In this document: piece after piece, positions 15,701-29,540 of the stretch
Numbering within the stretch: position 1 is the stretch's first letter
Layout of the letters: the number at the start of each line of letters is the position of its first letter
Source: Xylanimonas ulmi
GTDB taxonomy: Bacteria > Actinomycetota > Actinomycetes > Actinomycetales > Cellulomonadaceae
DNA length: 64,000 nucleotides
Direction: 5' to 3'
Assembly: GCF_004216535.1 (NCBI RefSeq)
Contig: NZ_SGWX01000001.1
Span: 1,550,001-1,614,000, forward strand
Translations under genes and position numbers: made by a program
The notes under the pieces: generated by a model
The model's database searches: none
Seen by the model: the letters and a program-made list of their open reading frames with translations, nothing else
Told to the model about the DNA's origin: nothing

Positions 15701-15977
15701 TCGCCTTTGCAATCGCTCCCGTCACCTCTCCCGGGACGTAAGGATGGACGCCCTGCGGCGTCTCCGGACGTTTGGCCTCGCCGGAGATCAGCAGTTCTCG
15801 ACTGCCCGTTGCGCGGCGTACCTCGACGTCGGGGCGCTTGCCGATTCTCTTGGCGGTCGTCTCGACAGCCCACTCGATGTCGAAACCTAGGATCTCGGCG
15901 CCAACCTTTTCGGCGATCTCTCGGATGTCGGAGAGCATGCCCACCTCGTTGCGGCCGGTGGAGAGACGCTTCGCCAT
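12720..15977 (-). CDS. Large N6-adenine DNA methyltransferase with nuclease-like N-terminus (type IIG-like)
   Basis: A 1085-residue cytoplasmic DNA-modifying protein. Near the N-terminus, PDVEVRRATGSRELLISGEA continuing into KRP (about residues 47-70) has the spacing of a PD-(D/E)xK nuclease core. The methylase core has the SAM motif VVDFCAGGGTFLVEAYSKL (about 380-398) and the catalytic motif GNPPYDEKSDR (about 480), the order of gamma-class N6-adenine enzymes. The following 350 residues (NWWILAAPAKLPGGGG, WWSVDWKL) resemble target-recognition regions of single-chain restriction-modification enzymes. It could modify and cut DNA alone, or serve as the methylase of the helicase operon upstream. 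The ATG at 15977 (MAKRLSTGRN) is preceded by AGGGGG; an in-frame start at 16019 exists. PglX of BREX was considered, but no PglZ or BrxC is present. Confidence 0.8.
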   Translation of the reverse strand: MAKRLSTGRNEVGMLSDIREIAEKVGAEILGFDIEWAVETTAKRIGKRPDVEVRRATGSRELLISGEAKRPETPQGVHPYVPGEVTGAIAKAKALGVRYAFTTNFLSAAMFDSRAYNTDASYLEAMVGDEIKVIEEKETGVADWWSVLTPERRTALVRPGLEDFFRQLRALLLQDKTVPKAGKDEVYFAIFKASADALLAEALPSVLNAISTLTLPAEVSAAAGQRGFDMAKSDVVRHFVAQAIGEVLTSGLFYETVRPTFSLKAILSGTTPATSDHMRQVLLRNLAEATRVTGDYETIFGLSAGAQYLLGIESQTLRWLWLELFAALDGVRFDEVNSEIIGVIFERLISSDQRQEMGQHYTQSRLARAMTAWAVQGPDDRVVDFCAGGGTFLVEAYSKLRESKSHEAVLEQVFGNDLDSFAVHLATVNLATRDVYKGHNFPAVSNQDGLAIRPGDAAVDVTPFVGTPYQINYPDGFEVVLGNPPYDEKSDRPGVYRNDLAQIAGNGGLAMLPQGMPDNVNLAAWFVLLAAAWLKPGGRIALVLPAAILQNEKHATLMSWMRSKFDVSVWHTESDVWFSDARVAPIALFLKERDDQNGSYGRFEFVNVLAPVSGDIEVLNGFPRPVEAHDTRDLSAIEPSEDALIAGTRPAELTAFEAAPNVIRLGAVSGVSIYRGNKLGHAFFRLKDRDPKNSGVLRSLVGFDIQATFHKKYLKPLFRSPKDEATGQFDPSYVNWWILAAPAKLPGGGGLESYVRAVKRAGAADKPSVKAKGVSWWSVDWKLSRIAVGAHPYFQPQVWWSDEEFVATDNFQAITLPNSVATTDQELVAASLASVYGNLAALYRSNEVGCEGARWVSTNNLGEWRVLDWSKVPVSEKKSVLEAYREFRKLKFSKVYEMTAAAKASWRTLSVAVARAAGLANPDARAEEALKRAHATTFRRREREVVATSGRTRAGSSGGGKLMRDIKAYTESGYSEAVAALTDGDETLRLKVQAIEQTLFDLSNEANKRRVCNALVAHVGEGFDAAPIWDDRTVDAVGSLYDDVLRQFIQLTDDGTIPIGYEYAAELIRGQVTKALASAVKKRLS

Positions 15978-16057
15978 TGACTGGAACCCCCTGCTGGAAC
16001 TGACTTGGTTGCCGACCAACCTTAGGATACATGTCAGGGTGATCGCGGGACCGACAC

Positions 16058-16207
16058 CTACGGTGGCGCGAGGTGCGCGCCTGGCTCGGTCAGGGGCGGT
16101 GGATCCGCGTTCGCCGGGTGGCGGCGCCAGATGATCCCAGGACTGGACTCGACGAGCCCAACCTGCCGTGTGCTATCCGCACGCTTCAGAACCCGTGGGA
16201 CGGCCAT
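16058..16207 (-). pseudogene. 5' fragment of an IS1634/IS1549-like transposase
   Basis: From the ATG at 16207 the minus strand reads MAVPRVLKRADSTRQVGLVE, matching the start of the intact relative at 19953 (MASARVLKRANGTRQVQIVW). Homology stops after about 24 codons (near 16135) where it joins other DNA. On the plus strand, bases 16055-16128 read LRWREVRAWLGQGRWIRVRR, which looks like the N-terminal end of an AbiEi-type antitoxin or similar small wHTH gene, also cut. Both are remnants. Confidence 0.5.
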
Positions 16208-16211
16208 CCGA
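16135..16211. repeat. Left copy of a 77-79-bp direct repeat flanking the IS1634-like element
   Basis: Bases 16135-16213 are identical to 20066-20144. The repeat abuts the left terminal motif CCTGACTTG (16212) of the IS1634-like element, the two bases CC being shared. The matching right copy abuts the other terminal motif. The arrangement is that of a very long target-site duplication. Confidence 0.75.
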
Positions 16212-16238
16212 CCTGACTTGGGCCAATGTGGTGTCCCC

Positions 16239-17190
16239 TCAGCGGGCGGCCTGACTGATCTTGTCGAGGGCTTCGCGCAGGTCGTCGGGCAGGGGCTTCC
16301 TGATCGGCACGGTCTGGGTGCCAATCTTGGCCCAGGTGGTGCGGTAGCGGCGGGCAGTCGTCACGAACTTCTTGATCGACCACCCGGTCGTGGTCTCGAT
16401 CCAGTGGGACACGGCCATCGCCGCGAATGCGATGGTCAGGTGAGCCTCGATCGACTCACGCAGTCGGTGATAGACGGGGCGCACGGCGAGGTCGGACTTC
16501 GCCATTCGGAACGTCTTCTCGATCTTGTAGAGCCGCTGGTAGGCGCCGATCACCTGCTCCGGGGTGGCGTCGGGGATGTTGCTCAGGTAGGCCTTGAACC
16601 CGGCCAGTGACCTGGCCTTGGCCTCCAGGTCCCGGTTGATCGACTTCGTCGCGCCGTCGAGCTTGATGAACCGGTTCCGCTTCACAGCGGCGTGCCCGTC
16701 GACCTGCACCTGCGCCTTGGCGACCTGCGCGTCGATCCCGCGCAACGTCCGCGCCGCCCGCCCGCGTTTGAACTGGTAGTAGGTGACGTGGTCGGCCAGG
16801 TTCTTCTTCCCCGTGCCCACCGGCTCCTTTGCGACCCACACCTGCCCGTCCTCGTACTCGGTGTCCGGGTGGTCGGCGCGCCACTTCTCGATGACGTAGG
16901 GCAGGTGCGGCATCTTCGCCCCGAGGACGAAGGAGAACCCCTCGGCCTCGATCGCCTTCCAGTTCGCCTCCGAGATCATGCCCGCGTCCGCGACGACCAC
17001 CACGTCGTGCAGGCGGTGCGCGGCCAGGAACGCCTTGAGCGTCGGGATCATCGTCTTCGTCTCGGCGGTGTTGCCCTCCCACGCCGTGACCATCAGCGGC
17101 AGCCCGGACGCGTCAGCGAGCAGCCCGATCTGAATGAGTGGCTCCACCCGCCGCTCCTTGCTGAAGCCTGGGACCCGGAACTCGTCCTCT
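16239..17190 (-). pseudogene. IS1634-family transposase, C-terminal two thirds (interrupted gene)
   Basis: This stretch continues the transposase begun at 19953. It shows VEPLIQIGLLADASGLPLMV, the catalytic Asp region VVVADAGMISEANWKAIEAE, and the C-terminal Glu region YQRLYKIEKTFRMAKSDLAVRPVYHR, with the usual TWAKIGTQTVPIRKPLPDDL before the stop at 16239. Joined to the 5' part with one copy of the CCTCT duplication removed, the coding length is 1506 bases (501 residues plus stop) and the junction reads ETDKEDEFRVPGFSK in frame. Only the IS21 insertion disables it; no other damage is seen. Confidence 0.88.
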
Positions 17191-17260: not shown

Positions 17261-18031
17261 CTACTTGTCGGTTTTTGTGGTGAGTAGTTCGCGGCGCGCT
17301 CGGGTGCGGTAGGAGTCGCCGGTCAGGGTGACGACCTCGGCGTGGTGCACGAGGCGGTCGATCATCGCGGCGGCGACGACCTCGTCGCCGAAGACCTCAC
17401 CCCAGCGCCCGAAGGGCAGGTTCGAGGTGATGATCAGCGAGCCTTGTTCGTAGCGTGCTGCGACGAGCTGGAAGAAGAGGTTCGCGGCGTCATGGTCGAA
17501 CGGGATGTAGCCGACCTCGTCGATGATCAAGACCTTGTAGCGGCGCAGGCGTCGCAGCTCGGCGTCCAGGAGGCCGGCGGCGTGCGCTGTGGCGAGGCGG
17601 TCGAGCCATCCGGTCGCGGTGTTGAACAGGGCGAGGTTCCCGGCGTGGATCGTCTTGATGCCCAGCGCGATCGCTAGGTGGGTCTTGCCGGTCCCGGGCG
17701 GGCCGAGCAGGATCACGTTCTCGGCCTTCGGCACGAACGCGCACGAGGCCAGGTGCGCGAGTTGATCGCGGCGAAGCCCGGGCTGGTGGGTGGTGTTGAA
17801 GTCCTCGAGCGTCTTCAGCGCAGGGAGGTGCGCCTGGCCCATGCGGGTGACGATCCCGGCGGCTTCCCGGTCGGCGAGTTGGCGGTCCAGGACCGCGGCG
17901 AGGTACTCCTCGTGGGACCAGCCCTCGGCGCGGGCCCGATCGCCGAGCTCGGCGAACACCCGCCCGATCGTCGGCGTCTTGAGAGCCCGGGCCTGGTAGG
18001 CGATCCGGGACGTCGTCTGCTCGGCGTTCAT
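17261..18031 (-). CDS. istB: IS21 helper ATPase IstB (copy 1)
   Basis: A 256-residue AAA+ protein that assembles on target DNA and stimulates the IstA transposase. Walker A is LLGPPGTGKTHLAIALG (about residues 107-123), Walker B is KVLIIDEVGYIPF, and the sensor region is YEQGSLIITSNLPFGRWGEVFGD, followed by the arginine-containing MIDRLVHHAEVVTLTGDSYR. Length is normal for the family. Its ATG overlaps the istA stop by 4 bases (ATGA), the standard coupling in IS21. The gene is closely related to the copy at 62431, sharing most motifs exactly but differing throughout, so the two elements are related and not recent duplicates. Confidence 0.95.
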   Translation of the reverse strand: MNAEQTTSRIAYQARALKTPTIGRVFAELGDRARAEGWSHEEYLAAVLDRQLADREAAGIVTRMGQAHLPALKTLEDFNTTHQPGLRRDQLAHLASCAFVPKAENVILLGPPGTGKTHLAIALGIKTIHAGNLALFNTATGWLDRLATAHAAGLLDAELRRLRRYKVLIIDEVGYIPFDHDAANLFFQLVAARYEQGSLIITSNLPFGRWGEVFGDEVVAAAMIDRLVHHAEVVTLTGDSYRTRARRELLTTKTDK

Positions 18032-19323
18032 CCGGCCACCCCCTGCCCGTCCTCGGCGGCCGCGTGGCCGATGGCGGGGTCGACGCCGAACAGGGTGTCG
18101 TAGTCAGACAAGGCGCGCAGCGGCACGATCGTGCCGTCCGCGTGCGTCCTGGCGCCGGCCAGTCGAGCCTGCTCGGCGCGGGCGTCGATGGTCTGCTGGT
18201 ACTGCTTGCGCAGGACCGCCGCGGTGGCCACATGCGCGGGATCGGTGATCGTGGCGTGGTCGGCCCAGCAGCGGGCATGGGAGGCCACCTGCCGGTCCTC
18301 GCACGTGACCCATACCCTCGTCAGGTCCGCGTGCACCTCGACCATCCGCCCGATGACGGACGGGTCGACGGAGTAGTCGTTGGAGTCCAGGCGCACGTAG
18401 TAGTCCCGGCCCAGGCGCACCCGGTGATGCCAGCCCGTCGTCGGGGCCACCGGCGGCAGCGGCAGCATCAGGGGCCGTTCCCGATCGAAGACCTCCGCGG
18501 GCCGGGCGCCGAGCGCCCGCACGACGCGCTGGTTGGCGTCCTGCGCCAGCCACCCGCCGAGCTGGGTGTTGAAGTCGCCCGGTCCCGCGAACCGGCGCCC
18601 CGGCAAGAACGACGACTCCAGGTACCGGTTGTGGCGCTCGACGCCGCCCTTGAACTCCGGGTCCGCGGCCGGAGCGATCACCGCACGGGCGCCCAGCGAA
18701 CCGACGAACGCGCGCATCGACTGCGTCGGCACCCCGCGCGTGGTGGCGATCGCTGACTCCCTGTCCCACCACAACCGGTGCGGGACCGCGTTCATCTGCC
18801 CCAGCAGCTGCCACATCGCCGCGGTCAGGTCCCCGCTGCGCCGCGAGGGCACCATGACCGCGCACATGTACCGCGAGTACGTCGCGACCATCACCAGGAC
18901 CGGCAACATCATCGCCTGCCCATGCCCCACCGCGATCCGCGGCTCGGGGAACCACAGGTCGCACTGCACCGTGTCTCCGGGCTCGTGCACGACCCGGTCG
19001 GCCGGATCGATCCCGCGATACTCCGGACGGATGTCGCGGATCCTGTCCTTGAGGATCGTCAACGAGCGCGTCCACCCGATCCGCTTGGCGATCACCGTCG
19101 CCGGCATCGTCGGGTCCAGCCGCAACTGCTCACGCACCAGCGGCTCGACCTCGTCGACCAGCGAACCCTTCGCCGGCCGCGAGTACCGCGGCGGATCGCT
19201 CGCCGCCAACGCCGCCCGCACCGTGTTCCGCGCGACACCCAGCCTCCGCGCGATCGCCTTGATCGGCACGCCCTCAGACCTGTGCAACCGGCGGATCTCC
19301 GCCCAGTCCTCCATCGAGATCAT
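18028..19323 (-). CDS. istA: IS21 transposase IstA (copy 1)
   Basis: A 431-residue DDE transposase. The N-terminal helix-turn-helix is WAEIRRLHRSEGVPIKAIAR followed by RLGVARNTVRAAL. The rve core has catalytic Asp in GDTVQCDLWFPEP, Asp in RLWWDRESAI, and Glu in DPEFKGGVERHNRYLESSF, then LPGRRFAGPGDFNTQLGGW. The start used is the ATG at 19323, which aligns with the GTG start of the second copy (MISVENWAE); a GGAGGG directly abuts it, so the ATG at 19314 is an alternative. The protein binds the multiple terminal repeats and cooperates with IstB. All catalytic residues are intact. Confidence 0.93.
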   Translation of the reverse strand: MISMEDWAEIRRLHRSEGVPIKAIARRLGVARNTVRAALAASDPPRYSRPAKGSLVDEVEPLVREQLRLDPTMPATVIAKRIGWTRSLTILKDRIRDIRPEYRGIDPADRVVHEPGDTVQCDLWFPEPRIAVGHGQAMMLPVLVMVATYSRYMCAVMVPSRRSGDLTAAMWQLLGQMNAVPHRLWWDRESAIATTRGVPTQSMRAFVGSLGARAVIAPAADPEFKGGVERHNRYLESSFLPGRRFAGPGDFNTQLGGWLAQDANQRVVRALGARPAEVFDRERPLMLPLPPVAPTTGWHHRVRLGRDYYVRLDSNDYSVDPSVIGRMVEVHADLTRVWVTCEDRQVASHARCWADHATITDPAHVATAAVLRKQYQQTIDARAEQARLAGARTHADGTIVPLRALSDYDTLFGVDPAIGHAAAEDGQGVAG

Positions 19324-19394
19324 CCCTCCAGACTCAGCCAAAGGGGTCAAGATTCATCCGTCGCCACAGGGTCAGTTTTCAGGCGTCGTCAACA

Positions 19395-19953
19395 CCTCTT
19401 TGTCGGTTTCAAACCATAAGTTCGTCACGTCGAAAAGTAGTAAGCTCGCAGGTCCTAGCCTCGCGGCACGCGCGCACGCCGCGGAGAGGGAATCGCGGAA
19501 CCCCTCAGCCGAGTACAGGCGAAGTCGGCGCTGCATCGTCCGATACGACGCGTGCGGCACCCCGACCTCGGGCAGCACCCGCTCGATCGCCGCCTGCTTC
19601 GACGTCGGCTCGACGATCCTGGCAAGGACGAGATCACGGAACACGTCATCGCCGGCCGCCTCGTCGAACCCCAGCGCCCGGAACCCGGCGTTGAGGGCGT
19701 CCCACAGGGCCGCCATCTGCGAGGCGACCTCCTCGAGCGGCTCGCCAGCGCGCCGAGGACCGTCAAGACCAAGCTCAAGGACACCCTGGCCTGCGTTGAT
19801 GCGCTCACGAGCCTCGACAAGCAACAACTGGACGTCCTCGTCGGTGCGGCCCGAGCCGACGTACTCGACCTTCCGCTTCCCGCCGACCTTGCCCCACACG
19901 ATCTGGACCTGACGCGTGCCATTCGCACGCTTCAGAACCCGCGCGGACGCCAT
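19395..19953 (-). pseudogene. IS1634-family transposase, N-terminal third (interrupted gene)
   Basis: The transposase begins at the ATG on 19953 (MASARVLKRANGTRQVQIVW). It continues through LWDALNAGFRALGFDEAAGD and the RMLRL-type region SYRTMQRRLRLYSAEGFRDS to LGPASLLLFDVTNLWFETDK, where the first catalytic Asp (FDVTNLWFE) lies. The IS21 inserts within the next codons, at the CCTCT duplication. The remainder of the protein is at 16239-17190 in the same orientation. Confidence 0.88.
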
Positions 19954-20065
19954 CCCGTCAGCCTAGAGCGCCGCCGTGGTGTCCCCCTCGGGCGACCACG
20001 CTACGCATCACCCCAGGTCACGCGCCGTCAGCAGCTCGAAGCCCCGCCGCGTGTCGCAAGTCGGG

Positions 20066-20142
20066 TCCCAGGACTGGACTCGACGAGCCCAACCTGCCGT
20101 GTGCTATCCGCACGCTTCAGAACCCGTGGGACGGCCATCCGA
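20066..20142. repeat. Right copy of the 77-79-bp direct repeat, with second IS1634-like 5' fragment
   Basis: Identical to 16135-16213 over 79 bases. Within it the minus strand encodes the same MAVPRVLKRADSTRQVGLVE start as at 16207. Downstream bases 20145-20205 look like the leader and end of that older element (GCCGTGGTGCCCCC, then GCATCACCCCAGGTCA at about 20189). Thus the IS1634-like element inserted into an older, already truncated relative. Bases 20206-20286 hold nothing recognisable. Confidence 0.7.
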
Positions 20143-20286
20143 CCAGCCTAAGGCGCAGCCGTGGTGCCCCCTTCAGCGGCTCACACCCCGCATCACCCCA
20201 GGTCAGGAAGTCGCGGGTCGCTCAAGCTCGGCAATGTGGCCCGAGTCGGGTCGTACTTGATGCCCACTATCCCGGACCTCCGAGGG

Positions 20287-23200
20287 TCACGTCCTGACGA
20301 GGTTCATGAGGTCGTCGTAGCTCGTGACCACGTTGTACTCGACGTTGTCAGCGTTCTTGGGGTTGAGCGCCGCGAAGAACTTGCGGGCGCAGTCGATCTT
20401 GACCTCTTCAACGCCTCGGAGCTGAAGCGTTGAGAGCGAGCCCTTGGTCTCGGCGACGAAGTAGACGTGCTTGACCTTGCCGTCATGGAACGCGATGGCC
20501 CAATCGGGGTTGTAGTCGCCGACCGGGGTCGGGATGAAGAAGCCCCGCGGGAGCTTCGCGTAGACCTTGACCTCGCTGCTGACATCGAGCGACTCGACGA
20601 ACGAGCGTTCGCCGCCCGAGTCGGTGACCACGTAGTCGTAGATGTGCTTGTCGAGCTTCTTGGCCTTGGCGAAGTCTTCCTTCGTCTGGTTGGCCGTGAA
20701 GATGCTCGAGTCGAAGCGGTCGTCCAGTGCGTCGTAGGTCAGGTGCTCGACGATCACCGTGGCCTTCTGCTCGTTGACTATCCGCGCTGTCTCGGTGATG
20801 AATCGCTCGGGGTTGAGGCGGAACTTTGCGAACGTCGCCGGCTGCACGGCGCTTAGGATCGCGGCGCAGGTGCGGCGCGTGAGCTGCGTCTTCTCTGCGA
20901 TCTCGCCAAGTAGGTCGTAAGCCACTGTCGAGCCGGCCGTAACGGCTTCGCTGACCGTCTCGGTGCTCTTTGTCTCGAAGCTCTCGCCGTCAGTGAGTTC
21001 GTCGGCCTCGATCCGTTCGAGCTGCCGGCCGGCCGTGACGACGTACTGCATCGCTGCGACCTTGAGCTCCTTGTCAAGTGCCTTGATGCACTTGCCGATC
21101 AGCTCGTCCGAGTCGAACTCGACTTGGTAGACCGCCTTGTGGTTGATCTGACCCCACAGGTCCTGGAACGCCTTGAAGTTGGCGTCGTTAAGCGGGATCT
21201 TCTTCGGCTTTCGGCCGTCGGTGATCGGGACGTCGAGGTACAGCATGTCGACCAAGGGCCAGAGCCCATCAATCACCGGCGCCAAGAGCGGGTTCGTCGG
21301 CGTTACGAATGCCTCAGCCGTTTTGGCGTCTTGGTAGGTCTGCGTCACAGCCCCCGAGTCGTCGATGTAGTCGGCCTTGACGAGGTAGTTATAGAACGCG
21401 GTCGCAAGCTGCTCCGCGACGACGGTTTCAACACCGTCGGCATTGGTAAAGGTCTTGCCTGTAAAGAACTTGACCGACGCCTTCTTCGGGCGGGAGGCCA
21501 GGGTTGCCGCGATCTCCTTCTGGAGGCCGTCAACAAATGACGTGTAGGACTCGTCCGTGACGACGGTGAGCTCGTTGATCTCGTGGACCGTCGACGGGTG
21601 GTCCTGACGTTCACCGGTGCGATCGACGGAGAGACGCAAGCCGCGGCCGATCTCCTGGCGCCGCGAGACGGTGTTGTCTGAGCGCTTGAGCATGCCCATC
21701 ACGAACACGTTGGGGCTGTCCCAGCCCTCGCGCAGCGCGGAGTGCGAGAACAGGAACCGCACCGGCTCCTCGGGCGAGAGCAAGCGCTCCTTGTCCTTAA
21801 GGATCAGGTCGTAGGCGTCGGTGTCCTTCGACTCGCCCTTCTCGTCGCCCGTCTTGTTGATCGCACCGTCGACCTCGCGCCCTGACCGCTTGTCGATTGA
21901 GAAGTAGCCAGCGTGGATGTCACCTACAGCGTCGCGGCGGAGGTACTCCTGGTAGCCGGGCTCCAGGTCCATCTCTGAGAGTGCCGCTTCGCGGGCGAGC
22001 GCGTACTCCTCTTCGAAGATGCGGGCATACTCGCCCTTGGTGTCCTCGCGGTCGTAGTCGCGGTACTTGGCGACCTCGTCGATGAAGAACAGCGACAGCA
22101 CCTTTATGCCTCGCGCAAACAGTTCGCGCTCCTTGGACACGTGTGCGCCGATGACTTCGCGGATCTGGATGCGCCGCTTCGTCTCCTCTGAGACGTCCTG
22201 CGTGATCTGGCCCGCGAGGATCAGGTCGCCGTTCGAGAGTTCGACAACGTCGCGGGTGGCGTCGATGTCGATAACCACGAGGTCCTTGTACGCCTCGATG
22301 CCGTTCGACAGGGCGTGCAGGTTGGTGCCCTTGTCCACGCGCTTCGGTTGCCGCTTTATCCCACTTGCAGTCTCGACCTCAAGCTCTATCCGGGCGCGCG
22401 GGAGTGAGCCTTTCGCCACCTCGATGGAGTCGACGTACAGGTACGCCGTCGAGCCCGCGAGGCCCTTCACTGTGATGCCGCGCACCGCGATCCGCTTGAC
22501 GAGCTTCTCGTTGAAGGCGTCGAGGGCGTCGAGGCGGTGCACCTTGTTGTGTTCCACCCGGTGCGTCGCCGAGTATCGCAGGACCATCAAGGGGTTGAAC
22601 CGCGACAGCGACTCCTGTGACCTCGCCGCGCTGATGCGCTGTGGCTCGTCGATGATCAGGATGGGTCTGTTGGCCGCGATGACATCGATCGGCTTGCGCG
22701 AACCGAAGTCGTCGAGGCCAACCAACTCCTCGACGCCGCGAGCGTTCACCTTGCGCGTGCCGTAGATGCGACGGTTGTCCGCTCCAGTCGAGTTGAACGC
22801 CTGGATGTTGATGATCATCACCTGCACGCCCGCGTTGGACGAGAACGCCTCGAGCTCGTGGAGCTGCGACGAGTTATAGACGAACGAACGCGGCTTCGTG
22901 CCGTAGGTCTGCTGGAAGTGCTCGGCGGTGATGTCGAACGACTTCTTGACACCCTCACGGATAGCGACCGACGGCACGACGACGATGAACTTCGACCAGC
23001 CGTAGCGCCGGTTCAGCTCCATGATCGTCTTGATGTAGACGTAGGTCTTTCCCGTACCCGTCTCCATCTCGACGTCGAGGTTCGGCACACCCGCGGGCGC
23101 CGCGGGTGACGTGGCGAGGGACGTCGACAGCGGCAGACCCCGTGCCCGCTGAACGGACCGGATCTGCTCCAGGACTTGCTCCGGAGAAAGCGCGATCTCC

Positions 23201-23454
23201 CGATTTCGGAGTCCGGAGTCAACGCGCTCAGGCTCAGCGAGCTTGCTCTGGACACCACCCAGCACAAGTTCGCCCTGCCCGCCGGAAGCGATCGGTACGT
23301 ACGAGGAGCCATCGGTCGTCGCACGAGGTGCCCCGCGTCGGCCAGGATCGATGGTGTACTTCTCGCCGGAGGCCTTTGGCTGGCCAGCGAAGACGTCGAC
23401 AACTGCGTCGACGGCATCGGTCTGGTACTGCTGGACCTTGAACTGGAGCCGCAT
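20287..23454 (-). CDS. Type III restriction Res-like DEAD/DEAH helicase-nuclease
   Basis: A 1055-residue SF2 helicase fused to a nuclease, the translocating and cutting subunit of type III restriction systems. Walker A is METGTGKTYVYIKTI (about residue 127-141), the DExx box is LIIDEPQRIS, and the RecA2 motifs are RFLFSHSALREGWDSPNVFV, continuing to RRQEIGRGLRL. Near the C-terminus PDWAIAFHDGK followed by FVAETKGSL gives a PD-(D/E)xK nuclease signature. It starts at the ATG on 23454, which overlaps the last base of the mod stop (TGATG); GTG 23457 is also possible. It is the last gene of the four-gene operon; its partner Mod supplies DNA specificity. No frameshift seen. Confidence 0.88.
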   Translation of the reverse strand: MRLQFKVQQYQTDAVDAVVDVFAGQPKASGEKYTIDPGRRGAPRATTDGSSYVPIASGGQGELVLGGVQSKLAEPERVDSGLRNREIALSPEQVLEQIRSVQRARGLPLSTSLATSPAAPAGVPNLDVEMETGTGKTYVYIKTIMELNRRYGWSKFIVVVPSVAIREGVKKSFDITAEHFQQTYGTKPRSFVYNSSQLHELEAFSSNAGVQVMIINIQAFNSTGADNRRIYGTRKVNARGVEELVGLDDFGSRKPIDVIAANRPILIIDEPQRISAARSQESLSRFNPLMVLRYSATHRVEHNKVHRLDALDAFNEKLVKRIAVRGITVKGLAGSTAYLYVDSIEVAKGSLPRARIELEVETASGIKRQPKRVDKGTNLHALSNGIEAYKDLVVIDIDATRDVVELSNGDLILAGQITQDVSEETKRRIQIREVIGAHVSKERELFARGIKVLSLFFIDEVAKYRDYDREDTKGEYARIFEEEYALAREAALSEMDLEPGYQEYLRRDAVGDIHAGYFSIDKRSGREVDGAINKTGDEKGESKDTDAYDLILKDKERLLSPEEPVRFLFSHSALREGWDSPNVFVMGMLKRSDNTVSRRQEIGRGLRLSVDRTGERQDHPSTVHEINELTVVTDESYTSFVDGLQKEIAATLASRPKKASVKFFTGKTFTNADGVETVVAEQLATAFYNYLVKADYIDDSGAVTQTYQDAKTAEAFVTPTNPLLAPVIDGLWPLVDMLYLDVPITDGRKPKKIPLNDANFKAFQDLWGQINHKAVYQVEFDSDELIGKCIKALDKELKVAAMQYVVTAGRQLERIEADELTDGESFETKSTETVSEAVTAGSTVAYDLLGEIAEKTQLTRRTCAAILSAVQPATFAKFRLNPERFITETARIVNEQKATVIVEHLTYDALDDRFDSSIFTANQTKEDFAKAKKLDKHIYDYVVTDSGGERSFVESLDVSSEVKVYAKLPRGFFIPTPVGDYNPDWAIAFHDGKVKHVYFVAETKGSLSTLQLRGVEEVKIDCARKFFAALNPKNADNVEYNVVTSYDDLMNLVRT

Positions 23455-25319
23455 CACAGGGCCTTGAGTTCGGTCGCCGGGGACAGCTCGCGGAAGACCT
23501 GCTCAGCGTTGATCCGGTCCGCGTCTGACGCGAACGCGGAGTCGCGGAACACTGCGCGCAGCGGCGTACGTTCGGCTATGGCGCGGACCAGGTTGCCGTC
23601 GACGATCGTGTCGAAGCACGCGATGAGGGCACCCTCGTCGACAACGTGCACGGTGTGGTCGCCCCACCGTTCCTCGGACAGTTTCACGTCCAGCGGCAGG
23701 CCCCAATCGAGGAGCACCTGGAACAAGAGATCGTCACCTGTGCGATCGGCCTTGGTAGAGGAGGTCAAGCCGGCAAGTGCGCCCTGCTCGTACTTGTCCG
23801 GGGTCATCGCGACGTCCGCCATGCTCGTGGTGTCGACGCGCAGCAGGCGGTAGCCAACGTCAGGCGGGTTGATCTGGCCCGAGAGCTCCGCCCCGACGTT
23901 TTCAATGCGCTTGAGGCTCATCCCAAGGATGGAATCGAAGTCGGGCTCCGGCGCAGAGAGTGGCTCGTGGACCTGAACTGCGATGAACCGCCGGTTCCCG
24001 CCATCGAGCGCGTTTTGGGCCAGCACGGCGTGGGCGGTGGTTCCGCTGCCGCTGAAGAAGTCCAGCACGATGTGCTCATCGGTCGGGTTGGTGGCCAGTG
24101 TGAGGATCCGCTGGATCAGCTCGACGGGCTTTACGGAGTTCAGGACGTTCTCGGTGTGCCTGAACGGTACGTACTTCAGGAGCGTCTTCTTGGCGTCCTG
24201 CGTGTGCCCGACCTCGCTGTACGGCCAGAGTGTCTGCGGAGTCCTCCCGGCCGAAACTTCCGAAATGAACCGCTTTACCGCGGGAGCGTTGTCGCCATCC
24301 GCGCCCCACCAGATGCGGTTGTCGGCGTCCAACTCACGGAACCGGCTCTTCGAGATCCGCCAGTAAGTACCACGCGGCGGGCCGTCGATCACGCGTCCGC
24401 TTGGTGTGGTGATCGAATACAGACCCGCACTGTACGGGTTCCGTGCGGTCATGTTCTCCGCCTTCCACGGCCCCCGCGGATCACCGTCCGGGTTCTTGTA
24501 TCGAGCCTCCTGCTCCGCCGTACGAGGAAGCGGGTTTGGTGTCCATGCTGGCTTATTTCGGGCGTAGATGAGAATGTAGTCGTGGTCTTCGGAGAACCAC
24601 TGCGCCGAGTTTTTCGGCGCGTACACCTTCTGCCAGATAATCTGAGCGACGAAGTTCCGTGCGCCAAATACCTCGGTCGCGAGCTTGCGGAGGTTGTCCA
24701 CCTCGTTGTCGTCGATCGAGATGAAGAGCACGCCGTCGTCGGTCAGGAGGTTCTTGGCGAGCCTGAGACGTGGGTACATCATGCTCAGCCAGTCCGAGTG
24801 GTAACGACCATCGGTCTCTGCGAGGGCGACGAGTCTTGAGCCCTCGGAGTCTGCCTGGCCCGACCGCTTCAGGTACTCGTCGCGCGTCGACGAGAAGTCG
24901 TCGTCGTAGATGAAGTCCCGGCCCGTGTTGTAAGGTGGGTCGATGTAGATGAGCTTGACCTTGCCGAGGTAGCTCTCCTGGAGGAGCTTGAGCGCTTCGA
25001 GGTTGTCGCCTTCGATGAAAAGGTTCTTCGTGCTCTCGAACTCGACGGAAGCATCCATGTCAGGGCGGAGTGTCTTTGCGATCGGAGCACTGGCGGCATA
25101 CTCCGCCTCGCGCTTACCTGGCCAGTCGAGCTGATAGCGCTCTACCGGGCCCTCGACCACGTGGTTGCTGAGCTCCTGGCGAAGCGCGTCGAAGTCGATC
25201 GCACGGGTGGGGTTGCCGACGGCGTCGAGAGTCTCGGTCACGACGGACGGAAAGAGTTCTGCGACCTTGTCGATGTTGGCCCGGGTCAGGTCAGGCGAGG
25301 TCATGCGGAGCTTCTCCAT
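23454..25319 (-). CDS. Type III Mod-like DNA methyltransferase
   Basis: A 621-residue beta-class amino-methyltransferase, the modification and recognition subunit of a type III system. The catalytic motif IYIDPPYNTGRDFIYDDDF (about residue 121) precedes the SAM-binding motif VLDFFSGSGTTAHAV (about residue 412), the beta-class order. The region between carries the target-recognition domain (YAPKNSAQWFSEDHDYILIYARN is the usual family core). The N-terminal LFIEGDNLEALKLLQESYLGKVKLI is typical of Mod proteins. It starts 6 bases after the DUF4391 stop and overlaps the Res gene, so modification and restriction subunits are made from one message. An earlier methionine (MEKLRMTS) was used as start. 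Confidence 0.9.
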   Translation of the reverse strand: MEKLRMTSPDLTRANIDKVAELFPSVVTETLDAVGNPTRAIDFDALRQELSNHVVEGPVERYQLDWPGKREAEYAASAPIAKTLRPDMDASVEFESTKNLFIEGDNLEALKLLQESYLGKVKLIYIDPPYNTGRDFIYDDDFSSTRDEYLKRSGQADSEGSRLVALAETDGRYHSDWLSMMYPRLRLAKNLLTDDGVLFISIDDNEVDNLRKLATEVFGARNFVAQIIWQKVYAPKNSAQWFSEDHDYILIYARNKPAWTPNPLPRTAEQEARYKNPDGDPRGPWKAENMTARNPYSAGLYSITTPSGRVIDGPPRGTYWRISKSRFRELDADNRIWWGADGDNAPAVKRFISEVSAGRTPQTLWPYSEVGHTQDAKKTLLKYVPFRHTENVLNSVKPVELIQRILTLATNPTDEHIVLDFFSGSGTTAHAVLAQNALDGGNRRFIAVQVHEPLSAPEPDFDSILGMSLKRIENVGAELSGQINPPDVGYRLLRVDTTSMADVAMTPDKYEQGALAGLTSSTKADRTGDDLLFQVLLDWGLPLDVKLSEERWGDHTVHVVDEGALIACFDTIVDGNLVRAIAERTPLRAVFRDSAFASDADRINAEQVFRELSPATELKAL

Positions 25320-25325
25320 CGATCC

Positions 25326-25985
25326 CTACTTCGTCGTGTTGAGTTCGTGCTGCTTGGCCAAGAGGGCGCGCCGGAGTTCGACCCTGCGGTTGAACTGCCG
25401 TTCGGTGCGGATCTTGCGTTCGAGCGCAGCGACCTCACGCTCGAGTCGGCGCACGTCGCTCAACCTATCGGCGACCTCTGACAGCGACTCGCCGGGACGC
25501 GCCGTGACCGGCATGAGCGGCTCGAGGAGCGCCGCGTACAGGGCGGCGAGCGTGATCGCCGTAGGCAACGGTGCGCGGCGGGAGTCAGCCGGCATCCATG
25601 CCGACGAGTAGTAGGAGGCGACCTTCGGGGCGCCCGAGCCAATGATCTTGTGGGCCGCAACCATGCGCGTCTCGTCGGTTCGGTTGATCTCAAAGATGAT
25701 CGGTTGCGGGATCGCTGCGTCGATCGCTGTCAGGACGGAGTCGGTGACGTCGTCGGCGCGTGCGTCGAGGACTAGAACCTGGACCTCGGGCATGCCCGGA
25801 TCGGCGGGCAGACGGAGCGTCGACTCGGCGAGCTTGTACGCCCAGGTGATCCGCTCGACGTCATCGACGAAACGCTGCTTCACCGCGGCGTGGACGGCCC
25901 CGTGGTTGTAGATCGCGTTCTTGGGGACGACACGGCCGAACGCTGCGGCGGTCGGCCACCGGAAGAGGATGCGGGCGTCAGGCAT
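25326..25985 (-). CDS. DUF4391 protein of the helicase/Mod/Res operon
   Basis: A 219-residue protein matching the DUF4391 pattern: N-terminal LFRWPTAAAFGRVVPKNAIY, a central ITWAYKLAESTLRLP with PEVQVLVLDAR, then PIIFEINRTDETRMVAAHK. The C-terminal 50 residues form a charged coiled coil (REVAALERKIRTERQFNRRV). The function is unknown, but such proteins recur between SNF2-type helicases and Mod/Res genes, so an adaptor or regulator role in the complex is inferred. The start at ATG 25985 overlaps the helicase gene by 8 bases. The longer upstream frame lies inside the helicase gene and is rejected. Confidence 0.75.
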   Translation of the reverse strand: MPDARILFRWPTAAAFGRVVPKNAIYNHGAVHAAVKQRFVDDVERITWAYKLAESTLRLPADPGMPEVQVLVLDARADDVTDSVLTAIDAAIPQPIIFEINRTDETRMVAAHKIIGSGAPKVASYYSSAWMPADSRRAPLPTAITLAALYAALLEPLMPVTARPGESLSEVADRLSDVRRLEREVAALERKIRTERQFNRRVELRRALLAKQHELNTTK

Positions 25986-28900
25986 CGCGGTCGACCACGG
26001 CGATGAAGGCGATGAGTTCGAAGTCGTCGAGGCCGGCGATCTGCTGGGTGAGTGCGGTCGTCGGGCCGGCGGAGAAGAGAGAATCGATATCGCGTTCGTC
26101 GGTGACATCGATCATCGAACCGATTGCATCGGTCAGAAGACCGGAGTACTTGCCCATCTTCGCGCCGTCCTTCGTATCTGCGTTGAACCGCGCGACGACG
26201 TCGGCGACGGGCTCGTCGAAGGGGCGGCAGCCGGCACGCAGTAGATCGAGGAGTCGCTTGGCTTCGGTGTGGTCGGCGATCACCTCGCCGTCGTCAGACA
26301 GGTAGACGAGGTAGTGCGGGTGGAGCCGGTTGCCGCGGTTCATCGCTTCGTCGGCCTCGAGGTTGTGCAGGGCGAAGATGACGCCCGGGACCAGTCCCTT
26401 GTCGGGGTCGGCAGGGGCGACAGCGTGCAGGCCCTTAGGCAGAGCCACTGTGTTGCCGGCGTCGTCCATATAGCCGAGTAGGTCCATGCGGAAGTCGTTC
26501 AGCCCGAGATCAGTGATGGACACACCGGTGCGCACATCCTCAAGTTCTATGACCTCGTCCTGGAGACGGCGCAGTTGCTCCTTGCGGAACGGGGCGTCGC
26601 TGGACTCGTGGGTCAGGACGTTGTCGTCGGCCGTACCGGCGACGTCGGCGATGACCATGCGGTTCTCGACGCGTTCCTTGAGGTTGATGTAGGCGTCGAG
26701 GGTGATGTCGGGCCAGAAGTTGACGAGCTGGATCTCGGTGTTGATCGAGCCGATGCGGTCGATGCGGCCGAACCGCTGAATGATCCGCACGGGGTTCCAG
26801 TGGATGTCGTAGTTAACGAGATAGTCGCAGTCCTGGAGGTTCTGGCCCTCGGAGATGACGTCGGTGCCGACGAGGAGGTCCACCTCCCTGTCCTGCTTCT
26901 CGGCCTCAGGCATCGTCAGGTGGCGTTGTTTGGAGCGCGGCGAGAAGAGGGTCATGACCTCCTGGACATCATAGCCGCGACCCCTCGACCTCGCGGGGAG
27001 CGTCGTCTTCGCGCCGGCCGCGCCGCCTGTGACGAGGGCGGCTTCCGAGCCTAGCAACGCGGCCGCTGGAGCGAGGTGCTCATAGAGGTAGCGGGCGGTG
27101 TCGGCGAAGGCCGAGAAGATGAGGACCTTCTTGTTGCCCGGGTTGATCGGGTGGGCCACCTTGTCGCGGACGATCTGGAGCAGGCGCCGGAGCTTGAGGT
27201 CGTGCTCGGGCCGAATGGCGGTCATCAGGCGCAGCAGCTCGCGGAGCTCGGAGCGGTCCTGGCGTAGGTCTCGGCTGTAGGTCTCGATGTCGATGTCTCG
27301 GATGTCGATGGTGATCTTCGCGCCGATCGTCAACGCCTCGACGTTGGCGTCGTCCTCATCGTCGGCGTCGAAGTCCATGCCGGCGACGTCGTTCGCGACG
27401 TCGTGCGTGATCGAACCAGCCGCGAGGGTGTCCAGCATGCCAGTGACGGACTGCTCGATACGTGCGAGGGTGAGGCGGAACGCCTCGACCGAGCTCTCGA
27501 GACGCTTGAGGAGGTTCACAGTCATAAGCACCTTGAGGCCCTGCTCGCGGCCGGCCTGGCCAAGGTTCTCCCTGGCGGTCCCGCCCGCGACGTTGTACTT
27601 GTCCTCGTACTTGGGCAGCCGTGACGGGAACACGTATGCGAGCGGGGTGTAGACCGCGAGGTTCAGACGCTGGAGGGACTCGAGGATCTCGTCGAAGGTC
27701 GGGGCACCGTCAAGATCCGTGATCGGGGTTCGGTACGAAAGCGGCGTGCGGCGCTGCGGGAACGCGCCGATGGCCCTGGTGTCGTAGAACGTCTGGATGT
27801 GGCGGCGCGACCGCGCGATCGTGACCGCGTCCAGGAGCTCGAAGAAGTCGAAGTCGAGCATCTGGAGGATGCGGTCGGTCGTCCGGTCTGCTGGCTCAAG
27901 CTTCGACCACTCATTGAAGACGCGTTGGGCGTCTCGGAAGACGGCGTCGATCGTCGTCGTCAAGCCAAGGTCCTTCTCGAGGTTCTCGGACTCGCCCTCG
28001 TAGGCGAGCTGGAGCTGATTCTTCAGATCGTTGAACCGGTTGTTGACCGGCGTTGCGCTCAGCATCAGCACCTTGGTCTTCACGCCCTCGCGGATGACCT
28101 GCCGCATAAGCCGCTGGTAGCGCGACTCCTTCTCCTCGGCGTAGTCCGCGTTGCGGAAGTTGTGCGACTCGTCGATCACGACCAGGTCGTAATTGCCCCA
28201 GTTGATCCGGTCCAGCCGCAGGCCGAGGCTCTCGCCGCCCGTGCGCGAGAGGTCAGTGTGGGCGAGGACGTCGTAGTTGAACCGGTCCTTCGCAAAGATG
28301 TTGGTCGTCAGGTTCGCGTTGTAGTTGGTCCAGTTCTCCGCGAGCTTCTTCGGGCACAGGACCAGGACGGACTTGTTGCGCAGTTCGTAGTACTTGATGA
28401 CCGCCAAGGCCGTGAACGTCTTTCCGAGGCCGACGCTGTCGGCAAGGATGCAGCCGTTGTAGTGCTCGAGCTTGTTGATGATGCCCGTCGCTGCGTCCTT
28501 CTGGAAGTCGTACAGCGCGTTCCATACCGCCGTCTCCTGGTAGCCCGTGCGGTCGTTCGGGAGAACGTCCTCGCTGATGTCGTCGAGGAACTCACTGAAG
28601 ATGTTGTAGAGGATCAGGAAGTAGATCCGAGCAGGAGCGTTCTCGGCGTACACGCCGACGATCTGCTCGTGGACAGCGTCGGTGACGTCGCGGAGCTGGC
28701 CGGGGCTGTTCCAGACTTGGTCGAAGAGAGCAAGGTACGTGGTCGTCATCGCCGGCTCGTCGAACCGGTTGACGAGGTTGGACACGGCGTTGCCGCGTCC
28801 CAGGCCCAGGTCGGCAGTAGTGAAGCCCTGGAGCGGCATGTAGGTGACGTCGTCGTCGACCATCGCGAACTGCTGCATCGGGTTGCCTGTTGCGTTCGCC

Positions 28901-29271
28901 CTGAAGGTCACTTTCTTGCGGACCCACTCTGCGCACTCCCGCGCGATCGCGCGCTGGGTCATGCGGTTGCGCAACCGGATCTCGAACTGGGAGCCGTACA
29001 GGCTGCCCTCCGCGGCCGCACCCCCGTGGGGCGGCGCGATGAAGAACTGCCGGCGCTCCTTCGGTGACGACGCGCCCATCGCCGAAGGGGGCGGGAAGGC
29101 CGGCTGCGTGAAGACGAACTGGAGTTCCTCGATCTGCTCCAACTCCTGGCGCAGCGCCTCGAAGGCAAAGATCGAGAACGTCGAGGCGGCGATCCTGAGC
29201 TTCGACCCTGGCTTCAGCTCGCCCCTCAAATCGTCCCCAACGAGGTCGTTGACGTTGTCGATGAGTCGCAC
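25978..29271 (-). CDS. SNF2/RapA-like helicase with PLD-like N-terminal domain
   Basis: A 1097-residue DNA-dependent ATPase. The first 150 residues (LIDNVNDLVGDDLRGELKPG, then SKLRIAASTFSIFAFEALRQ) resemble the phospholipase-D-like module in front of related defence helicases, although no HxK catalytic pair was found. The motor has Walker A ILADSVGLGKTFTAL (about residue 270-284), DESHNFRN, LMLSATPVNNRF, and the C-terminal lobe EGQNLQDCDYLVNYDIHWNP followed by RIIQRFGRIDRIGS. The chosen start is GTG 29271 (VRLIDNV), where family similarity begins; the frame is open to an ATG at 29370. It is the first gene of the operon, overlapping DUF4391 by 8 bases. A chromatin-like DNA translocase role in phage recognition or restriction is inferred. 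Confidence 0.82.
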   Translation of the reverse strand: MRLIDNVNDLVGDDLRGELKPGSKLRIAASTFSIFAFEALRQELEQIEELQFVFTQPAFPPPSAMGASSPKERRQFFIAPPHGGAAAEGSLYGSQFEIRLRNRMTQRAIARECAEWVRKKVTFRANATGNPMQQFAMVDDDVTYMPLQGFTTADLGLGRGNAVSNLVNRFDEPAMTTTYLALFDQVWNSPGQLRDVTDAVHEQIVGVYAENAPARIYFLILYNIFSEFLDDISEDVLPNDRTGYQETAVWNALYDFQKDAATGIINKLEHYNGCILADSVGLGKTFTALAVIKYYELRNKSVLVLCPKKLAENWTNYNANLTTNIFAKDRFNYDVLAHTDLSRTGGESLGLRLDRINWGNYDLVVIDESHNFRNADYAEEKESRYQRLMRQVIREGVKTKVLMLSATPVNNRFNDLKNQLQLAYEGESENLEKDLGLTTTIDAVFRDAQRVFNEWSKLEPADRTTDRILQMLDFDFFELLDAVTIARSRRHIQTFYDTRAIGAFPQRRTPLSYRTPITDLDGAPTFDEILESLQRLNLAVYTPLAYVFPSRLPKYEDKYNVAGGTARENLGQAGREQGLKVLMTVNLLKRLESSVEAFRLTLARIEQSVTGMLDTLAAGSITHDVANDVAGMDFDADDEDDANVEALTIGAKITIDIRDIDIETYSRDLRQDRSELRELLRLMTAIRPEHDLKLRRLLQIVRDKVAHPINPGNKKVLIFSAFADTARYLYEHLAPAAALLGSEAALVTGGAAGAKTTLPARSRGRGYDVQEVMTLFSPRSKQRHLTMPEAEKQDREVDLLVGTDVISEGQNLQDCDYLVNYDIHWNPVRIIQRFGRIDRIGSINTEIQLVNFWPDITLDAYINLKERVENRMVIADVAGTADDNVLTHESSDAPFRKEQLRRLQDEVIELEDVRTGVSITDLGLNDFRMDLLGYMDDAGNTVALPKGLHAVAPADPDKGLVPGVIFALHNLEADEAMNRGNRLHPHYLVYLSDDGEVIADHTEAKRLLDLLRAGCRPFDEPVADVVARFNADTKDGAKMGKYSGLLTDAIGSMIDVTDERDIDSLFSAGPTTALTQQIAGLDDFELIAFIAVVDRDA

Positions 29272-29416: not shown

Positions 29417-29476
29417 ATGTCCGATGTGCTCTCCGGCCTCACGCTCGTCGACGGCCGTCAAGCCCGAAGCCGTTGA
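29417..29476 (+). pseudogene. Truncated gene start facing the island scar
   Basis: An ATG at 29417 opens MSDVLSGLTLVDGR, which resembles the opening of an amidohydrolase-like protein. It runs only 19 codons because it meets the GAPDH start coming from the opposite strand at about 29455-29463. Upstream lies an AT-rich stretch unlike its surroundings (TGACATATCACATATCACC, about 29381-29399), probably a promoter or operator. Only the 5' end of the gene survives. Confidence 0.35.
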
Positions 29477-29495
29477 TGCCGATGCGAACCGTCAT
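29463..29495 (-). pseudogene. First 11 codons of a glyceraldehyde-3-phosphate dehydrogenase gene
   Basis: From the ATG at 29495 the minus strand reads MTVRIGINGFG, the nearly invariant GAPDH start (normally continuing RIGR), preceded by the ribosome site AGGAGAAG. After the last Gly codon (29463) the sequence turns into the truncated plus-strand gene. The rest of the gap gene is absent, so this is a deletion or insertion junction at the island's right edge. Confidence 0.7.
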
Positions 29496-29540
29496 GGTCT
29501 TCTCCTGTGTCGGGATGGGTCGGGGTTGGGTCGGGATGGG

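Follow-up and report, generated by a model that had tools for sequence, protein, structure and literature searches.

A widely conserved operon joining a type III restriction-modification system with a SNF2/RapA-like helicase and a DUF4391 protein in Xylanimonas ulmi

In the present study, a 64,000-nucleotide stretch of the genome of Xylanimonas ulmi (contig NZ_SGWX01000001.1, positions 1,550,001 to 1,614,000; hereafter the window) was analyzed, and four open reading frames on its minus strand (20287-29271), encoding a SNF2/RapA-like helicase, a DUF4391 protein, a type III Mod methyltransferase and a type III Res helicase-nuclease, were found to form a real, old and widely conserved unit. By its predicted Mod and Res, this operon is a type III restriction-modification system, and the four-gene set seems to be a larger, little-studied version of the classic type III scheme. 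Herein, we propose that the SNF2 helicase is probably held to Mod-Res through DUF4391 and would help the Res step as a translocase or remodeller.

First, the gene identities proposed in an initial annotation, which was made from the sequence alone, were borne out by matches in Pfam, PADLOC and PDB. Res matched REase_III (1034 bits), RE_endonuc and ResIII, and aligned with the EcoP15I Res chain over residues 83-785 (243 bits), while Mod matched MTase_III (674 bits) and N6_N4_Mtase, together with the EcoP15I Mod chain (176 bits, best stretch 54-257) and the solved Mod 6k0w (residues 50-463). The helicase matched SNF2 and Helicase_C, and its top score among bacterial PDB chains was RapA; the DUF4391 protein is PF14335 (E 5.9e-48). 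The PADLOC protein models, whose use had been suggested earlier, named Mod and Res as type III and gave the helicase the generic model 'HKD+Snf2' (379 bits) as its top match, but found no match for DUF4391 (query stretch 25326-26000). As expected of type III enzymes, Mod carries the DPPY and FxGxG motifs with a variable recognition region between them (set at roughly residues 205-395), and Res combines a superfamily 2 (SF2) motor with a C-terminal PD-(D/E)XK nuclease (PD at 984-985, ETK at 1003-1005). The expected motifs are intact in the helicase, Mod and Res of the window, and the main catalytic residues are kept in at least 95% of the aligned relatives (121 helicase, 69 Mod and 109 Res rows). 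The helicase start, GTG at 29271, agrees with that of relatives (consensus N-terminus m..IDN). The tight coupling described earlier was also found at the positions in Table 1: the helicase and DUF4391 genes overlap by 8 bases, a 6-base gap separates DUF4391 from Mod, and Mod overlaps Res by 4 bases from the Res GTG, or by 1 base from the ATG at 23454.

Table 1. Coordinates in the window of the four genes and of related features
Feature	Position	Strand	Description
SNF2/RapA-like helicase	25978..29271	-	1097 aa; Walker A GLGKT at 281, DESH at 367, QRFGR at 832
Helicase N-terminal domain	~240 aa	-	Degenerate PLD/HKD-like, without HKD motif
DUF4391 protein	25326..25985	-	219 aa; alpha/beta part and C-terminal helices, conserved E..QfNRKV motif
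Type III Mod methyltransferase	23454..25319	-	621 aa; DPPY at 127, FSGSGTT at 422
Type III Res helicase-nuclease	20287..23457	-	1056 aa; Walker A TGTGKT at 133, DEP at 270
Insertion zone	23454..25985	-	DUF4391-Mod interval (and adjoining Mod-Res interval); extra open reading frames in many relatives, empty in the window

Second, the four-gene order that the initial annotation had put forward as a candidate system recurs in other genomes. Besides the window, 138 DUF4391 loci (designated by L numbers) were gathered from 6 plasmids, the best 80 of 155 genome matches (picked by a peptide pattern), 16 predicted-viral contigs, two evenly drawn phylum samples (12 loci from Actinomycetota and 23 from the phylum of a Pseudomonas locus, with at most two candidates per genome scored in the protein searches) and one genome reached through a locus. 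Of these loci, 94 have flanks long enough for a judgement (3.6 kb or more upstream and 9 kb or more downstream of DUF4391); in 92 of the 94, DUF4391 is preceded by the helicase and followed by Mod and Res, all on one strand, and because of this recurrence the grouping is not a matter of chance. One exception (L114) has its Res about 130 kb away in the same genome, and the other (L115) is weighed below; L135 begins at a contig edge and has no Mod or Res within 9.6 kb. The helicase-DUF4391 junction has a median of 6 nt and measures at most 100 nt in 128 of 133 cases. In the Actinomycetota sample (396 genomes), DUF4391 was found in 13 genomes and a helicase of at least 45% identity in 12, every one adjoining DUF4391, and the remaining 23 helicase matches (at most 40% identity) all fell in DUF4391-free genomes. 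In the second sample (398 genomes), 23 genomes carried DUF4391 and 20 a close helicase (at least 45%), all of them DUF4391 carriers; two weaker helicase matches (40% and 32%) came from DUF4391-free genomes, and the three DUF4391 genomes without a helicase match have DUF4391 at a contig end. Thus, 32 of 32 close helicases in the two samples are in DUF4391 genomes. Res was matched in 23 of the 396 Actinomycetota genomes, and the best 12 matches were all in DUF4391 genomes and the other 11 were not; unlike ordinary type III enzymes, the Res proteins of this sample nearest to that of the window all share a genome with DUF4391. The set is also present on Leuconostoc and Listeria innocua plasmids and on an archaeal plasmid, where one additional gene separates DUF4391 from Mod; in an Acetobacter plasmid, the gene list contains no Res and shows an insertion sequence downstream of Mod. 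The possibility that the set is particular to this genome was rejected, relatives being found across genomes, predicted-viral contigs and both phylum samples. The locus L188, tried as a helicase-Mod-Res arrangement, was also rejected, given that its third gene has no Res match and its methyltransferase reaches 158 bits only.

Third, the helicase, DUF4391 and Res diverge together, and the recognition domain of Mod diverges independently of them. In the pairwise identities of 99 loci and the window (100 rows), the correlation was 0.98 for helicase-Res, 0.96 for helicase-DUF4391, 0.95 for Res-DUF4391, 0.85 for the helicase with the catalytic part of Mod and 0.09 for the helicase with the Mod recognition domain; within the subfamily of the window (85 rows, pairs below 98% helicase identity), the corresponding values were 0.93, 0.94, 0.92, 0.62 and 0.03. 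A near relative of the E. coli cassette L003 was found in 10 of 5,426 E. coli genomes, with at least 80% of the cassette in 9. When L003 and the cassettes of five of these ten genomes were compared, identities were no lower than 99.3% for the helicase, 99.6% for Res and 91.7% for DUF4391, but Mod identity was 66-74% in 14 of the 15 pairs and 96.7% in the other, because the middle of Mod has been replaced (40-column blocks there average 22-56% identity). As read from these alignments, replacement of the Mod middle on a fixed helicase, DUF4391 and Res is the hallmark of a restriction system whose specificity is changing. Thus, the joint divergence of helicase, DUF4391 and Res, the independence of the recognition domain and the exchanges in E. 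coli mark this as a restriction-modification system in which the extra pair is independent of the target sequence, and the swapped recognition domains on a fixed core represent natural specificity sets on one scaffold. The L003/L153 cassette itself is carried by plasmid pJH51-3, close to repA; genes for DnaE, a RecA-like protein and an exonuclease, together with a resistance region, are present on this plasmid as well.

Fourth, the helicase appears to descend from a helicase with its own nuclease. The N-terminal domain was aligned with the HKD domain of other SNF2 helicases at an hhalign probability of 98.8 (E 4e-17; reversed control, 0.3), and the PLD-like N-terminus described in the initial annotation therefore stands as a homolog of PLD/HKD nuclease domains, but the HKD motif is missing. 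The HxK...GSxN pattern was found in none of 122 family rows, the HSK stretch of the outgroup lies opposite a gap in the family profile, and Pfam PLDc_2 was matched by all three HKD-helicase relatives scanned and not by the N-terminus of the window's protein. In the aligned segment, HxK occurs in L067 alone, as NHTK where relatives have N[RK]TK; unrelated HxK triplets are present elsewhere in the N-terminus in 14 family rows, and the deep-branch rows L128 and L137 keep a GSSxF-like remnant. The helicase as a second, HKD-type nuclease was therefore rejected, and because its PLD-like domain lacks the nuclease motif, a translocase is more likely than a second cutter. When 33 helicases were placed in a tree, a branch (99/97) set the 22 family rows apart from the rest, and their nearest neighbours were L163 followed by L187, which both keep an intact HKD; because several outgroup branches are long and the root was placed at the midpoint, the finer order is less sure. 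The relatives outside the family are mostly HKD-SNF2 helicases paired with methyltransferase-like genes (near PADLOC C3a139), which share a homologous helicase including its N-terminal domain. They differ from the operon in two ways: 21 of 25 such loci still show the HKD pattern, and in 16 of 25 the place of Mod, Res and DUF4391 is taken by an NPPx methyltransferase-like gene, encoded on the helicase strand no more than 1.5 kb away (as recognized by the NPP[YFW] motif and length only); in 7 of the 9 loci without such a gene, the helicase sits no more than 400 bases from the end of the available stretch. The tree and the HKD-intact sister helicases beside methyltransferase-like genes therefore make a helicase-nuclease/methyltransferase pair the most likely source of the helicase, which a type III system later took over, and we read the helicase as a putative translocase with a dead nuclease that a type III enzyme acquired a single time. 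The two sister loci (L163, 8929-16233; L187, 3290-8872) each hold an HKD-intact helicase beside a methyltransferase-type gene, and a neighbouring open reading frame of L163 is weakly DUF4391-like. A scan of viral contigs with the L163 helicase gave no match.

DISARM consists of DrmA, DrmB (DUF1998) and DrmC with DrmD or a class-specific methyltransferase. Because the helicase weakly resembles DrmD, HmaA and BrxH models, an assignment of the operon to DISARM, Hma or the BREX-related systems might be considered, but this is very improbable: by best models none of the four proteins is DrmA, DrmB or DrmC, the NCBIfam DrmD model scored 159 bits against a cut-off of 610, DUF499, DUF3780, PglZ and BrxC are all absent from the four proteins, and Mod is a type III enzyme. 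These identities were thus rejected by gene content, in agreement with the earlier view that the operon is distinct from DISARM and Hma. As far as described in the available parts of a recent report, Type-2 BREX-related (BR)/Hma systems comprise a DUF499 ATPase, an N6-methyltransferase and a helicase, with DUF3780 added in Type-2 (PMC12839542); the operon resembles them in the restriction logic of an HKD-SNF2 helicase with a methyltransferase and differs from them in having neither DUF499 nor DUF3780.

The closest comparisons are with type III systems. The Mod and Res match the chains of EcoP15I and carry the catalytic motifs, whereas EcoP15I and other known type III enzymes are composed of Mod and Res only, according to the portion available of PMC4490356, and two additional conserved genes, the helicase and DUF4391, are present here. 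An extra helicase beside mod has been published, and the association is therefore not wholly unprecedented: in 2021, the N4-methylcytosine (m4C) type III systems BspHIV and Eco86II were described, in the passages available, as having an extra helicase-like ATPase of SF2 whose gene lies on the 5' side of both mod and res and whose sequence shows neither PD-ExK nor any other endonuclease motif; a helicase of this type is said to lie near mod and res in more than 500 genomes (PMC8259958). In architecture, which is the level at which the systems were compared, this arrangement is like that of the operon. It differs, by description, in that DUF4391 intervenes here between the helicase and mod, whereas the BspHIV helicase lies immediately 5' of mod with about 140 bp of non-coding sequence between them, and DUF does not occur anywhere in the text of that paper (PMC8259958). 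In two Actinomycetota loci without DUF4391 (L159, 4187-12098; L160, 3367-11191), a DrmD-like SNF2 helicase directly precedes type III Mod and Res. Since this helicase is a different one, the pairing of an SNF2 helicase with a type III enzyme seems to have happened more than once, and the BspHIV/Eco86II helicase may be of the same kind as those of L159 and L160. The UvrD-Cas4 loci described with type III Mod/Res, WYL/helix-turn-helix (HTH) and Schlafen genes have the same kinds of neighbours and possibly overlap with the present loci, of which L072, L076 and L086 contain a UvrD-like insert cluster (representative L076), but the helicase-DUF4391 core is unmentioned in the available passages (PMC5704561). 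In the literature searched, which left most subscription papers and REBASE outside its reach, no description of the four-gene set was found, and PF14335 and C3a139 gave no match; DUF4391 was named in one enrichment table, in a passage that did not contain the four-gene operon.

A type III Mod recognizes and methylates an asymmetric site, as in EcoP15I, and the hallmarks of the type are methylation of one strand at this site and cutting that requires ATP and two inverted sites. In EcoP15I, as reported in the text available, ATP switches the enzyme into passive one-dimensional sliding, and cutting follows when it meets a complex at an inverted second site (PMC4490356). In the operon, Mod would mark and find asymmetric sites, and on unmethylated foreign DNA Mod and Res would assemble. 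The SNF2 helicase would be tied to this restriction complex through DUF4391 as an adaptor and, as a double-strand DNA translocase or remodeller, would move or clear the complex until Res cuts; the helicase itself would be non-cutting, because its PLD domain has lost the nuclease motif. Since a Res of the EcoP15I type slides passively, a true motor would add directed movement. The physical complex, the adaptor role of DUF4391, translocation in the restriction step and an antiphage effect are what we infer, and the correlated divergence described above supports a helicase-DUF4391-Res complex in sequence terms. If a widespread type III subtype has its own SNF2 motor, it would test whether directed translocation can join the passive-sliding scheme.

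Several points weigh against this proposal. Correlated divergence is expected also for contact-free genes that are inherited together, which would account for part of the correlation, and the correlation therefore supports a complex without proving it. The AlphaFold prediction for residues 1-295 of the helicase had a mean predicted local distance difference test (pLDDT) of 41.9, leaving the N-terminal domain unmodelled. The cassette L115 (genome G380) consists of DUF4391, Mod and Res without the helicase, preceded by a RecR-like open reading frame (by eye), and the helicase may thus be dispensable. In the account available of Eco86II, the partly purified enzyme yielded no peptides of the helicase-like protein, and methylation did not need the helicase (PMC8259958); by analogy, this result speaks against an essential cutting role of the helicase, in a system for which no DUF4391 is mentioned and the helicase lies directly 5' of mod. 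These last two points, together with the Mod-and-Res-only make-up of known type III enzymes such as EcoP15I (PMC4490356) and RapA as the best bacterial PDB chain of the helicase, would also suit another explanation, in which Mod-Res is a complete ordinary type III system and the helicase and DUF4391 form a control or safety unit that restrains or licenses Res on host DNA (e.g. at replication or in a new host) or acts on transcription like RapA. We consider this unlikely, given that the N-terminal domain is homologous to those of defence-type HKD-nuclease helicases and not of RapA, that mean pairwise identity is higher for the helicase (64.3) than for Res (59.1), a degree of conservation that would be unusual for a mere regulator, and that several loci already have separate HTH or WYL genes annotated upstream.

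The role of DUF4391 was approached through its fold and its possible ancestry. The AlphaFold2 model (pLDDT 94.3) contains an alpha/beta part followed by two long helices with the E..QfNRKV motif. It had no Foldseek match in PDB or BFVD at E <= 0.001, and the sequence profile had none in PDB at E <= 1. A weak match was obtained with the N-terminal part of the L163 methyltransferase-like gene (probability 74.5, P 2.7e-5); the other nine outgroup methyltransferase-like sequences each gave at most 0.7, a ten-sequence profile gave 21.1, and 13 control segments of helicase, Res and Mod gave at most 2.3. With L163 and L187 combined, the probability was 14.9 and the score 28.6, compared with a maximum of 19.1 in 40 column shuffles, and the comparison with the L187 gene alone was not significant. 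A link between DUF4391 and the N-terminal domain of the sister methyltransferases is thus only suggestive. A bolder scenario may be tentatively entertained, in which the operon represents a separate type III class that arose once from a two-gene HKD-helicase/methyltransferase system: the helicase nuclease would have died, Mod-Res would have replaced the methyltransferase, a domain of which would survive as DUF4391, and the dead-nuclease helicase would be an active motor giving the passively sliding complex direction or one-site cutting.

The cassette is frequently interrupted in relatives. Insert open reading frames were called mechanically from gaps, and 20 of 47 cluster representatives were scanned. 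No extra open reading frame was present in 58 of 120 complete cassettes and at least one between DUF4391 and Res in 62, with inserts between DUF4391 and Mod in 32 and between Mod and Res in 44. The representative of the biggest cluster (23 open reading frames) is a Schlafen AlbA_2 protein, followed by YhcG nuclease (9), DUF2130 (6) and OLD-type ATPase (5); Bro-N, ORF6N, UvrD-like, AAA with subtilase, Fic, GmrSD and HerA-like representatives are rare, and some of those scanned had no family match. BREX loci, too, have Schlafen and OLD proteins as auxiliary effectors, as stated in the available part of PMC12839542. Such insertions in 62 cassettes might suggest that the helicase-DUF4391 pair is itself an independent defence module that merely accompanies the type III system, a situation which may also hold for the inserted Schlafen, YhcG and OLD genes. 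This is distinctly improbable, because the pair is hardly found with other partners (among loci with at least 9 kb downstream, Mod is present in 99 of 100 and Res in 98 of 100), and because the inserts vary while the pair is constant and the helicase diverges closely with Res. A defence role, in line with the candidate antiphage system of the initial annotation, is supported indirectly, by carriage on plasmids (38 records) and predicted-viral contigs (16) and by the defence-type families among the scanned inserts (Schlafen AlbA_2, YhcG, OLD and GmrSD). At least two Mod genes occur in 17 of the 120 complete cassettes, a count in which some of the genes are probably fragments left by an insertion sequence or a frameshift (L005, L037, L067 and L133). 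In the two-Mod cassettes L008-L013, L030, L033, L061, L079, L099 and L113, an open reading frame of the Schlafen-like cluster is present in 9 of 12.

The setting of the operon in the window is consistent with a mobile defence island. The G+C content is 0.61-0.70 from 12 to 30 kb, compared with 0.65-0.78 in the bins outside, and the low-G+C stretch also holds transposase genes and a second putative methyltransferase. The latter (12720-16019, minus strand) is a 1099-aa N6_Mtase/Eco57I protein with a PD...EAK-like N-terminal stretch (by eye) and is possibly a single-chain type IIG restriction-modification enzyme, as judged from its sequence; its nearest NCBIfam model is MAD2 (53 bits, far below the cut-off). 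Between 16239 and 19953 (minus strand), two open reading frames flank an IS21 pair (18028-19350 and 17261-18031) and may be halves of one DDE transposase, with a Pfam match for 16239-17147 only. Just upstream of the operon, at about 29464-29496 (minus strand), a GAPDH-like gene (recognized by eye) breaks off after its initial 11 codons and gives way to unrelated sequence; the one Gp_dh_N match of the genome lies elsewhere, and the fragment is possibly the island edge. Just downstream of Res, direct repeats with 185-base spacing are present at 19898-20252, and an 89-base copy of them (96%) is found across the transposase block at 16135-16223.

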